From NCBI RefSeq assembly GCF_001447355.1, contig NZ_JXBW01000001.1, positions 248,001 through 312,000 of the forward strand: a stretch of 64,000 bases of DNA, written 5' to 3'. Of this stretch, positions 26,200 through 31,310 are shown one piece after another; position 1 is the stretch's first letter, and each line of letters begins with the position of its first letter. A model generated the notes under the pieces. That model made no database searches, was not told the DNA's origin, and worked only from the letters and a program-made list of their open reading frames with translations. Origin of the DNA: Alicyclobacillus tolerans (GTDB taxonomy: Bacteria; Bacillota; Bacilli; Alicyclobacillales; Alicyclobacillaceae). A program made the position numbers and the translations under genes.

Positions 26200-26227
26200 G
26201 GCATGGCTCCGAGCCATGCCTTTTCAT
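26200..26227 (+). terminator. Rho-independent terminator of the sugar ABC operon
   Basis: GGCATGGCT-CCG-AGCCATGCC followed by TTTT. Confidence 0.88.
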
Positions 26228-26320
26228 TTGTCTCCTACTTTATGCAACTTTTTGTCCGAAACCGGAAGGACTATTCACGATTTTATCGAAATAATCACTT
26301 TGTCGTTGGATGTAGAAAAA

Positions 26321-26412
26321 GCACGAAAAAGGCAACCCTTCGGAAACGGAGAGGACGCAAAGCTATAGGGGCTAACACTGTCAGGTGTAGACAGTCATGC
26401 CAGCCAGCTGCC
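26321..26412 (+). promoter_or_regulatory. Cyclic di-GMP-I (GEMM-I) riboswitch aptamer
   Basis: The RNA shows the GEMM-I conserved core: AAGGCAACCC, a helix closed by a GAAA tetraloop (TTCGGAAACGG), then GGACGCAAAGC and GGGGCTAA, and a second helix CTGTC-AGGTGTA-GACAG. A terminator follows 13 nt later, then a gene for a c-di-GMP turnover protein. This architecture indicates transcriptional control by c-di-GMP. Boundaries are approximate to within about 5 nt. Confidence 0.9.
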
Positions 26413-26424
26413 GTGGTTCGGTTT

Positions 26425-26456
26425 GGGACAAACGCCGTCACGGTTGTCCCTTTTTT
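26425..26456 (+). terminator. Riboswitch expression-platform terminator
   Basis: GGGACAA...TTGTCCC with an inner CCG-TCA-CGG stem, followed by TTTTTT, ends 28 nt before the coding start. The upstream CCGTGGTTCGG region could compete with it as antiterminator. Confidence 0.8.
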
Positions 26457-26483
26457 CATTTGTGGACACAGGGTGGGACAAAC

Positions 26484-29372
26484 ATGATGAAGTTCTCGCG
26501 GTTCAGAGGCAAAGCGGAGCGAAATGGAGGTGAATGGGATGTCCCTATGCTCGGCCGATGGCGATATAAATTAAAAGAAAATAACGTTTACTGCTCACTC
26601 GAGATGGATCAAATCTATGGCCTTCAAACTCATGGGAAACCCACGCGTCCGGATCGATTCATTGAAGCAATCGTGCCGGAAGATCGCGATCTAGTTTTGC
26701 ACTGTTGGCGCATGCTGTGTTCCGGTAAGCGCATCGGACGCAGTTTCACCTACCGAATCCAAGTTGGTGAGCAAATTAAATTTGTACAATACACCGCAAG
26801 TTGCACGTATGACGACCATGGCCGGATGTCCGGACTGGAAGGCACCATCCGCGACGTGACGACGTTCCTTGATACCCCAGTGACAAGCCTGTTTTTGGCG
26901 CATGACCGCCGGTTGCTCAATCAGCCACAGGCCGCTGTTGCTCTCGATCACGAGTTGGGAATCGTCCACATCAACCAGTGGACGGAACAGCTCTTTGGAT
27001 GGTCTGAAGACGAGTTTCTCTTTCAACACGTTCCATACCTACCCACGAGCCTGGAATCCGCGACACATGATCTTTATCAAACCATCGTGAAAACGGGCGG
27101 TACCATCTGGCTCGACACAATCCGTTTGCATAAAGACGGATCGCTTAGGAAAGTATCCGTTGCCTTAGGACCACTCTATGACGAGAATGGCCTCATCAAA
27201 GGTTTGCTGGCCATGTATACGCCCGTGTCTGGTGTAGCCGATAGCATGGAACGTTCGCTGGCATGCGAAGCGCGCCTGCGACCGTTCATCGAACACGCTA
27301 CCGATGTTTTTATGTTATTGGATCGACAATATCAGGTATTATACGCGAACGCGGCAGTTCAAGAGGTCCTGGGCATGGATCCATCTGAAACGCGTCAGTT
27401 ATCCGTGCCCATGCTTGTGCATCCTGCGGATCGCAAGGAGTTTGAGATGGCATGTCAGCGAGTTGGCGACTCCCTTACAGAACTATTGAACATGGAACTT
27501 CGTTTCCAACACCGTTCCGGAGAATATAGGCACTGTCTCGCATCTCTATTTACGTGGGTAAGCCCAGGTGGTCAATCGCACGTTGTCGTTCGCTTTCGCG
27601 ACGTCACGGAAACGCGATCGGTGCGACAACAGATCGAGTTTCTTGAGCGACATGACGAACTGACGGGGTTGCTGAATCGGAAGGCATTCTTCCATGAGTC
27701 AACTGTATGGATCAGCCAATCTGATCCGAATCACCCGCTTACTGTGATGGTTCTGCGCATACAGCAATTCGACCGCATCATCGAGAATCTAGGCCATGCG
27801 GTGGGTGATGTCGTCATTCGTCTCGCGGCGGAGCGCATTCGCTTCCGGTTGCCCAAAGACAACATCTGCGCGCGCATCGGGGATCATGAATTCGCTATCA
27901 TGGTCCGGCAACAAGAGCGCGGCACGCAGACGATGTTCGCTTTGGCGAACGAACTGCTCCGCGCGTTTGAAGAGCCGTTTGCGTCTGCAGGACACACCAT
28001 CTACCTTGACGCAGACATCGGTATGAGCTTCTGCCCGAACGACGGAGATGACATTGCGACCTTGGTGCAACGTGCCGGTGTGGCTTTACGCCGTGCAAAC
28101 GATGCAAGTGAGAATAGCGTGCAGACCTACTCAACTCAACTTCACACCGATACATACAAACAGTTTGTTCTCGCGAACGACTTGCGTGATGCCCTGGCAA
28201 ATGACGCATTTCTTCTATATTATCAGCCCCGGGTGGACGCACAAAGCGGACGCATTGTTGCTGCCGAAGCACTAATCCGTTGGGAACACCCTGTCTGGGG
28301 ATTGGTATCACCTGTAGAGTTTATCCCCATCGCGGAGGAAACAGGGTATATTGTCGATCTCGGCTATTGGGTGATCCGTACAGCATGCCAACAGCTTCGC
28401 GCATGGCAAAACAAGGGTTATCCGCCCATCAAAATTTCGGTCAATGTTGCAGTGAAACAGTTTCAAGCAATAGATGTTGTACAAACCGTCTTATCCATCC
28501 TGGATGAGTGGAGCGTTCCTACGTCGGCCATCGAATTCGAAATCACCGAGACGTCTGTGATGCCTAACGATCCGAGCGTGATCGACACCATTCAAGCGTT
28601 TCGCAAAGCTGGAGTCGCCATCTATTTTGATGACTTTGGCACGGGCTACTCGTCACTGAGTTGGTTGAACCAATTTCAATTGGATGGATTAAAACTAGAC
28701 AAGTCGTTCATCGATCACCTGCCAAACGCTTGGGCACCTTCACAGATTGTCAAGTCCGTCATTCAACTCGCGCATCAACTGGGACTCACGGTGGTGGCAG
28801 AAGGCGTCGAAAACGTGGATCAACTTACGTTTTTGCAAAGCGAACGTTGCGATCAAGTGCAAGGCTACTTATATAGTAAGCCTGTTCCGGCAACCGCATT
28901 TGAGTACCTGCTCGCGCAGCCATCGATTAGACCCGCATCAGCAGATACGGCGGAGCGAGCGGCAAAGAATCGGCGCCGGTATGTCAGAGTTTCGTTTGAC
29001 GAGCCGCTGGTTGGCGAAGTGACGCTTGCGTCCATTGCAGGCAAACCGCTGTCTCTGGGTTACACACAGGTTTCTATTGTCGACGCTGGCGCGGGCGGCA
29101 TCAGTTTTTTGTCCAAGCTTCGGTTTCCACCTGATCGACGTGAACTTCGTCTGCGCTTCCGTTACTCGTTAGCAGAAGTGAACATCGAAGTGGAAGGCTA
29201 TGTGGTCTGGGCACATGAACTTCAAAATGGCGTATTTCAGTATGGTGCGGAATTCGATATCGATGCATCGACTAGAACGCGGCTGCAAGAGCTGTTACAC
29301 CGACATCAGACACTAACCCATACCACGAGCGAAAGAAAACTGGAAGCCGGTATGCCATCATTCTTTGGATAA
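26484..29372 (+). CDS. PAS-PAS-PAS-GGDEF-EAL-PilZ c-di-GMP phosphodiesterase
   Basis: A 962-aa cytoplasmic protein without membrane helices. Order: three PAS domains (about 20-130, 145-250, 265-380), GGDEF (about 385-545), EAL (about 560-800), PilZ (about 815-940). The GGDEF signature is ARIGDHEFAIM (GDHEF), so cyclase activity is unlikely. The EAL domain keeps EALIRWEHP, FEITETSV, DDFGTGYSSLSW, LKLDKSFI and VAEGVEN, so it should hydrolyse c-di-GMP. PilZ has RRRYVRV and DAGAGG, the usual ligand motifs. ATG at 26484 follows GGGTGGGA; a GGAGGTG further in could serve a shorter form starting at MLGRWRY. Expression is under a c-di-GMP-I riboswitch. Confidence 0.92.
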   Translation: MMKFSRFRGKAERNGGEWDVPMLGRWRYKLKENNVYCSLEMDQIYGLQTHGKPTRPDRFIEAIVPEDRDLVLHCWRMLCSGKRIGRSFTYRIQVGEQIKFVQYTASCTYDDHGRMSGLEGTIRDVTTFLDTPVTSLFLAHDRRLLNQPQAAVALDHELGIVHINQWTEQLFGWSEDEFLFQHVPYLPTSLESATHDLYQTIVKTGGTIWLDTIRLHKDGSLRKVSVALGPLYDENGLIKGLLAMYTPVSGVADSMERSLACEARLRPFIEHATDVFMLLDRQYQVLYANAAVQEVLGMDPSETRQLSVPMLVHPADRKEFEMACQRVGDSLTELLNMELRFQHRSGEYRHCLASLFTWVSPGGQSHVVVRFRDVTETRSVRQQIEFLERHDELTGLLNRKAFFHESTVWISQSDPNHPLTVMVLRIQQFDRIIENLGHAVGDVVIRLAAERIRFRLPKDNICARIGDHEFAIMVRQQERGTQTMFALANELLRAFEEPFASAGHTIYLDADIGMSFCPNDGDDIATLVQRAGVALRRANDASENSVQTYSTQLHTDTYKQFVLANDLRDALANDAFLLYYQPRVDAQSGRIVAAEALIRWEHPVWGLVSPVEFIPIAEETGYIVDLGYWVIRTACQQLRAWQNKGYPPIKISVNVAVKQFQAIDVVQTVLSILDEWSVPTSAIEFEITETSVMPNDPSVIDTIQAFRKAGVAIYFDDFGTGYSSLSWLNQFQLDGLKLDKSFIDHLPNAWAPSQIVKSVIQLAHQLGLTVVAEGVENVDQLTFLQSERCDQVQGYLYSKPVPATAFEYLLAQPSIRPASADTAERAAKNRRRYVRVSFDEPLVGEVTLASIAGKPLSLGYTQVSIVDAGAGGISFLSKLRFPPDRRELRLRFRYSLAEVNIEVEGYVVWAHELQNGVFQYGAEFDIDASTRTRLQELLHRHQTLTHTTSERKLEAGMPSFFG

Positions 29373-30362: not shown

Positions 30363-31310
30363 GTGCTGAGCTTGTACGATTCATCGACGACACCGAAATG
30401 GATAAGCATCTTGTCTCGCGAAGAGGGACTTGAAACGGCATATACGCAAAACATGACAGCTACGCTAATCGCCAGCAAGAACGGTACTGAGATTATTCAC
30501 CATCGTCTCGCCCGTATGGGTACAATGGCTATAATGCCAGCAGCAGGTTGGAATGAGCTTGAGTCACTTTGTCTATTAACTGGCTCACTCCGGGTGACAT
30601 ACGGCAGCGAGACATCGATTCTGCATCCTGGTGACAAGCTTGTGGCCGCCCCTGTACATGAACATGTGTGCATCGTTGCTATCGAAGATAGTGAGTTTTT
30701 ATACGTGTCATCAGCTCCAGTCTTTCAATCTTATCAAGGTCTAGTAAATGGTTTTCATGAACTTGCCGTAAAAATTTCTCTTAAGGATGGATACACGGCG
30801 TCGCACTGTGAGCGCATACGGCGATATTCGCTAATGATTGGGTGCGAACTAAACCTTAACGCGACTGACCTTCTTTCGCTTAGCTGTGGTGCGTTATTTC
30901 ACGATATCGGGAAAATTCGCATTCCTGATGAAATTCTTATGAAACCTGGTAAGCTAACGCCAGAAGAATTTGATATAATCAAACAGCACACCATTTTTGG
31001 AAGGGACATTATGGACTCTCCAGAGAACCCCTTTCTGAACATTGGCAGTAAAGTGGCGGAACAACACCACGAACGCTACGATGGAAGCGGATATCCATAC
31101 GGCCTGAAGAGGGATGACATCTATCTTCCGGCGGCTATCGTCGCAGTGGTGGACAGCTACGACGCAATGATATCCAATCGGCCTTATCAACCGGCTCGGA
31201 AGAAAGCCGATGCGGTTCGGGAGATTGCGTCGCTTAGCGGAAAGTTGTACGACCCGTGCGTCGTTGACGCATTTCTTAAGGTCGTAGATACATTTGCAGG
31301 CGAAGACTAA
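30363..31310 (+). CDS. Cupin-HD-GYP domain protein (probable c-di-GMP phosphodiesterase)
   Basis: A 315-aa protein. Residues about 40-120 form a cupin-like sensor fold (LTGSLRVTYGSETSILHPGD). Residues about 130-310 are an HD-GYP domain with FHDIGKIRIPDEI, KQHTIFGRDI and HHERYDGSGYPYGLKRDD, so the HD and GYP metal and substrate motifs are intact. It should hydrolyse c-di-GMP to pGpG or GMP. GTG at 30363 is the first possible start after an in-frame stop, but its ribosome site is poor; a later ATG at 30453 is possible. A secreted-peptide gene starts 12 bp after its stop. Confidence 0.87.
   Translation: MLSLYDSSTTPKWISILSREEGLETAYTQNMTATLIASKNGTEIIHHRLARMGTMAIMPAAGWNELESLCLLTGSLRVTYGSETSILHPGDKLVAAPVHEHVCIVAIEDSEFLYVSSAPVFQSYQGLVNGFHELAVKISLKDGYTASHCERIRRYSLMIGCELNLNATDLLSLSCGALFHDIGKIRIPDEILMKPGKLTPEEFDIIKQHTIFGRDIMDSPENPFLNIGSKVAEQHHERYDGSGYPYGLKRDDIYLPAAIVAVVDSYDAMISNRPYQPARKKADAVREIASLSGKLYDPCVVDAFLKVVDTFAGED

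Follow-up and report, generated by a model that had tools for sequence, protein, structure and literature searches.

A c-di-GMP-I riboswitch with the predicted topology of an OFF switch precedes a GGDEF-EAL-PilZ gene in Alicyclobacillus tolerans

In Alicyclobacillus tolerans, the gene for a protein with PAS, GGDEF, EAL and PilZ domains is preceded by a c-di-GMP-I riboswitch aptamer and an intrinsic terminator, with a third pairing that competes with both (Table 1). We consider it likely that, taken as a whole, this is a transcription-terminating OFF riboswitch before a c-di-GMP phosphodiesterase, which would place the signal in a positive loop with its own hydrolase. Homologues were gathered by protein search, without the riboswitch as a criterion, and comprise eight full-length proteins within the family (from seven Alicyclobacillus species, including A. 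tolerans, and from one other genus) and three shorter proteins from a second family of the same order. A c-di-GMP-I aptamer lies directly upstream of the gene in 8/8 full-length orthologues and in 3/3 shorter homologues, 11/11 in all, the orthologues representing about four independent lineages.

The leader and its promoter

The original prediction had placed a c-di-GMP-I riboswitch and a terminator before this gene and had proposed a covariance search as a check. The Rfam model RF01051 was matched well above its threshold and over its full length (model positions 1-87, E 3.6e-10, best of its clan) at exactly the coordinates first given, and a terminator hairpin was likewise located between aptamer and gene. 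The class I ligand is contacted by the G of a GGC, the A of GCAAAG and the C of CCG, the first of these being an A in cGAMP variants; the corresponding nucleotides are present here in GGC (26331-26333), GACGCAAAGC and GCUGCCG. The Rfam search identified this aptamer as the single riboswitch of the window (the whole 64-kb stretch of DNA that was analyzed), and the 2.8-Mb genome contains four c-di-GMP-I aptamers. The other three (L005, L006 and L007; genome G000) precede genes for a chemotaxis receptor, a PAS-PAS-GGDEF protein and a secreted protein, a close relative of which gave no Pfam match.

The upstream ABC-transporter operon ends at a terminator of its own (hairpin at 26200-26220), so that the riboswitch is probably transcribed separately. 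A putative SigH-like promoter, on which the original prediction had not remarked, is located upstream of the aptamer, and a gene for SigH is present in the genome, above the curated cut-off. The SigH consensus is RNAGGAWWW, followed after 11-12 nt by RNNGAAT; the sequence found approximates this without matching it in full, and the -10 element ends in A rather than T in 5/7 orthologues. The pattern AGGANNN-N11-RNNGAAW occurs in 7/7 Alicyclobacillus orthologues, always with a spacer of 11 nt, compared to 0/53 other aptamer leaders and 0.001 matches per shuffled leader of 110 nt. The related pattern AGGA-N14-RTCGAAW has one match in the 64-kb window, at this promoter, where 0.16 are expected. 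A generic scan for SigA promoters found none, and the leader of genome G040 carries an extended -10 SigA-like site in place of the SigH-like promoter. A promoter of the SigH type suggests that the gene would be expressed at the transition to stationary phase.

Table 1. Features of the locus, in positions of the window
Feature	Position	Strand	Remarks
Intrinsic terminator of the upstream ABC-transporter operon	26200..26229	+	9-bp stem, loop of 3, T-rich tail
SigH-like promoter (putative)	26267..26291	+	AGGACTA-11 nt-ATCGAAA, 29 nt 5' of the aptamer
c-di-GMP-I riboswitch aptamer (RF01051)	26321..26415	+	63.8 bits (gathering score 35); also in every orthologue
P1 5' strand	26322..26325	+	CACG
P1 3' strand (switching strand)	26411..26415	+	CCGUG, common to P1 and antiterminator
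Intrinsic terminator hairpin	26425..26456	+	GGGACAA 26425-26431, UUGUCCC 26444-26450, U6 26451-26456
Antiterminator 3' strand	26439..26443	+	CACGG, inside the terminator hairpin; compensatory CCGUUU/AAACGG in G040
Gene, PAS-PAS-PAS-GGDEF(GDHEF)-EAL-PilZ protein	26484..29372	+	ATG at 26484 or 26487; 961 aa from 26487
PAS domain 1 (PAS_3)	26586..26849	+	marginal, 26.1 bits against a cut-off of 25.6
PAS domain 2	26919..27230	+	PAS_4, 37.1 bits
PAS domain 3	27273..27605	+	Pfam
GGDEF domain, degenerate	27651..28115	+	Pfam, 103 bits; GDHEF at 27879-27893; without RxxD I-site
EAL phosphodiesterase domain	28176..28883	+	Pfam, 245.8 bits; all catalytic residues
PilZ domain	28968..29297	+	Pfam, 34-38 bits; RxxxR kept, DxSxxG as DAGAGG

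The gene product

The domain content agrees with the original prediction of three PAS domains, an intact EAL domain and a PilZ domain; the three PAS segments appear when the N-terminal part is scanned against Pfam in pieces. The EAL catalytic residues (the EAL motif, R-W, N, E, DDFGTG, K, EGVE and Q) are present in 11/11 homologues, with EGIE in one of them, and align to those of MucR and MorA in a sequence comparison with solved structures. The GGDEF motif, on the other hand, takes six forms among the same 11 homologues (GDHEF, GGDEF, GADEF, GENEF, SGDEF and SGNEF). Diguanylate cyclases are recognized by GG[DE]EF together with a metal-binding Asp; the A. tolerans protein has GDHEF, and the DLDRFKHIND of MucR corresponds to RIQQFDRIIE, by which the metal Asp becomes Arg, the next Asp Gln, the lysine of FK Asp, and the Asn that contacts guanine Ile. 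Cyclase activity of the GGDEF domain is therefore unlikely, and the combination of invariant EAL catalytic residues with a degraded cyclase site makes a c-di-GMP phosphodiesterase the most likely function of the product.

It had also been proposed that the GDHEF segment reads c-di-GMP allosterically. This is not supported: an RxxD I-site was looked for before the GGDEF motif and was absent in 11/11 homologues (PKDN in the A. tolerans protein), and the metal and guanine residues are replaced. In the PilZ domain, the putative sensor, the motifs are mixed. The criterion for a c-di-GMP receptor is RxxxR and [DN]xSxxG; RxxxR is kept and the second motif reads DxGxxG in 11/11 homologues, D/NxGxxG being the common PilZ form also among homologues from other Bacilli. 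A sequence search of the PDB with the PilZ domain alone gave no useful match. The AlphaFold model of the GGDEF-EAL-PilZ part has a mean pLDDT of 80 and a pTM of 0.50, too low for a claim on domain packing.

The genome contains four EAL genes including this one, and about eleven GGDEF proteins. Approximately 1 kb downstream, a gene for an HD-GYP-type protein (30363-31310, plus strand; HD_5 112.6 bits, HHExxDGxGYP motif, N-terminus possibly cupin-like) encodes a second probable c-di-GMP phosphodiesterase; it adjoins the hydrolase gene also in A. sacchari, and not in the distant orthologues. With three other EAL proteins and the HD-GYP gene, the enzyme described here may not dominate the c-di-GMP pool. 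It is conceivable, though unlikely, that the protein is mainly an effector under c-di-GMP control, a trigger phosphodiesterase or a PilZ output, whose hydrolysis barely changes the cellular pool. Trigger phosphodiesterases are a described class (PMC5052742), and the PilZ domain, the three PAS domains and the other EAL proteins of the genome would all fit such a role. However, the catalytic residues of the EAL domain are invariant in the 11 homologues and the ligand motif of the PilZ domain is atypical (DxGxxG), which speaks against the effector.

The sign of the switch

The CCGUG strand that closes P1 can pair with a CACGG in the loop region of the terminator, just 5' of its 3' arm. P1 and this antiterminator exclude each other, as do antiterminator and terminator, whereas the aptamer and the terminator are compatible. 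In a series of truncated RNAs the antiterminator is predicted with a probability of 0.87-0.97 at RNA 3' ends from 26443 to 26448, and is replaced by the terminator when the whole hairpin is available. Taken one sequence at a time, the duplex is unremarkable, as 2-20% of shuffles reach it (mildly better than chance, and not significant alone), so that the case rests on conservation, on a compensatory change in G040 and on the second family. In G040, CCGUGA/UCACGG has become CCGUUU/AAACGG, and P1 can still form. In the second family, GGGUUGCC of the aptamer pairs with GGCGACCC, the 5' arm of the terminator, over 7-8 bp; as read from these sequences, the antiterminator differs from that of the Alicyclobacillus leader and the switching logic is shared.

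Two switches of solved mechanism serve for comparison. Cd1 is an OFF switch, in which aptamer and terminator coexist and the antiterminator competes with both, and pilM is an ON switch, in which aptamer and terminator are mutually exclusive (PMC9262584); most class I switches of C. difficile are of the OFF type (PMC6200980). By the criterion taken from the former study, the A. tolerans leader sorts with Cd1, since its aptamer and terminator are compatible and its antiterminator uses the 3' strand of P1. The leader is thus very probably an OFF switch, in which high c-di-GMP would stop transcription, and the truncation series together with the topology points to a co-transcriptional decision of the Cd1 kind. 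At low c-di-GMP, the nascent CCGUG strand would pair with CACGG, break the terminator and allow the gene to be transcribed. At high c-di-GMP, the ligand-bound aptamer would hold P1, the terminator would form and transcription would stop.

The opposite sign would give a more familiar design, in which c-di-GMP raises the transcription of the phosphodiesterase that removes it, a homeostatic negative feedback modelled on the ordinary metabolite riboswitches that precede a degrading enzyme. Homeostasis is the intuitive design, and ON switches of class I exist, both at CD630_19900 of C. difficile (PMC6200980) and at pilM (PMC9262584). We judge an ON switch unlikely from the topology, however: aptamer and terminator are free of overlap, the switching strand of P1 finds its partner within the terminator, with 7 nt then left before the U-tract, so that this pairing cannot itself act as a terminator, and the second family repeats the OFF logic through another antiterminator. 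Given the OFF topology of the expression platform, we predict a positive and not a homeostatic loop; the original prediction had assigned it no sign.

Feedback, conservation and comparison with known systems

The original prediction held that c-di-GMP sets the transcription of its own hydrolase in a closed loop, and the combination of aptamer, terminator and EAL gene supports such control over a probable hydrolase. Hydrolysis of c-di-GMP would be the work of the EAL domain, the GGDEF domain is probably a cyclase no longer, and the PAS and PilZ domains probably set the activity of the product. As the signal would repress its own hydrolase, the loop would be positive (double negative), with possibly switch-like states of c-di-GMP; control through PAS or PilZ could mask the transcriptional feedback. 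Metabolite riboswitches are mostly homeostats. A double-negative loop, if true, could sharpen or lock states instead of buffering them, and a conserved OFF switch that governs a hydrolase would give a second messenger a natural and simple positive-feedback element made of RNA; c-di-GMP turnover in Alicyclobacillus would also be tied to the transition-state programme of SigH. Across this order of spore-formers, we tentatively suggest that an OFF switch and a PilZ-bearing hydrolase may form a conserved latch module between a high-signal (sessile) and a low-signal (motile) state, a choice that the SigH promoter would open as cells pass into stationary phase. As the host is a cultivable thermoacidophile and not a pathogen, the idea can be tested there.

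The combination had been called uncommon, which is half right. Many genes linked to GEMM riboswitches are related to c-di-GMP, whether to its synthesis, its breakdown or its signalling (PMC7266159), and riboswitches on turnover enzymes are thus already known as a kind; c-di-GMP riboswitches are also said to control c-di-GMP enzymes only rarely (PMC6366702). Our literature search found no report of this locus, and a full-text search found no dedicated paper on c-di-GMP in Alicyclobacillus. The novelty lies in the wiring, which is conserved, and in the sign predicted for it; the parts are of known kinds.

Of the 61 aptamers that come from 15 Alicyclobacillus genomes, 17 lie before a GGDEF or EAL gene, one decayed copy included, and the remainder precede, for example, genes for methyl-accepting chemotaxis proteins, STAS proteins, SinR-like regulators and secreted proteins. 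The decayed copy (L093; G006:C1:4176022-4176118 and downstream) is a second riboswitch and EAL-PilZ gene, in which the start of the N-terminus joins the C-terminal EAL half, with aptamer and terminator kept. In other Alicyclobacillus, probably of the A. acidocaldarius group, a gene for an EAL-Spo0E fusion lies behind a c-di-GMP riboswitch (L061:1-2246 in G003, L066 in G014, L071 in G002, L063 in G010 and L065 in G008). Its 5' end contains a run of 20, 12 and 21 G in three genomes, in 3/3 of these the EAL frame does not match that of the likely start, and two more contigs are interrupted at the G run or close to it; from its sequence this looks like a phase-variable (contingency) locus that joins c-di-GMP and sporulation control. 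In several species, c-di-GMP riboswitches are located about 280-320 nt 5' of SinR-like regulators (L077, L079, L082, L091 and L095) with a small conserved ORF (around DDEWIRLM) in between, and one scanned regulator has a SinI-type segment; a direct link from c-di-GMP to biofilm regulation is possible. In three species (L048, L058 and L072) a c-di-GMP riboswitch and terminator precede a STAS-domain gene of the anti-sigma-antagonist type.

The best sequence matches among solved structures are MucR (5m3c) and MorA (4rnh) of Pseudomonas, which likewise have a tandem GGDEF-EAL with all EAL catalytic residues, but have a canonical GGDEF and, in the matched chains, no PilZ domain; to our knowledge, no riboswitch is known for either. 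A further known system is Caulobacter CC3396/PdeA, in which, as Christen reportedly found in 2005, a degenerate GGDEF domain controls the EAL domain through GTP. The A. tolerans protein likewise has a non-canonical GGDEF beside an intact EAL domain, and could by analogy bind GTP and activate its EAL. We regard this as quite unlikely, as the GTP residues are largely lost through the four replacements described above; the residues of the GDHEF domain lend no support to a reader of either c-di-GMP or GTP.

The encoded protein is 94% identical in Alicyclobacillus hesperidum and 80% in A. sacchari. The genes that flank the locus are found in these two as well, and the flanks differ in more distant orthologues; switch and gene thus stay together without synteny. 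Some class I riboswitches of C. difficile lack a working downstream gene (PMC6200980), but a chance or relic aptamer that does not control the gene is highly implausible here and was rejected on the score and on retention in 11/11 homologues, with terminator and competing pairing. The pairing of switch and gene does not extend to every protein of this architecture: among GGDEF-EAL-PilZ homologues of other Bacilli, a class-wide sample (L142-L152), 0/11 have a directly upstream c-di-GMP-I aptamer, and the one nearby aptamer, at L142, lies in front of another small gene at a distance of 1.3 kb. These proteins have the same C-terminal domain order, and mostly RxxxR and D/NxGxxG in PilZ, while their GGDEF is mostly intact. 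A universal coupling is thereby rejected, and the pairing is thus a trait of the order, not of the domain combination.

For the leader itself, the nearest known system is Cd1 (Cdi-1-3) of the C. difficile flgB operon (PMC9262584, PMC6200980). Its targets are flagellar genes and not a c-di-GMP hydrolase, so that it exerts no feedback on the signal, but it likewise combines a c-di-GMP-I aptamer and a coexisting intrinsic terminator with an antiterminator built from the strand that stabilizes the aptamer.
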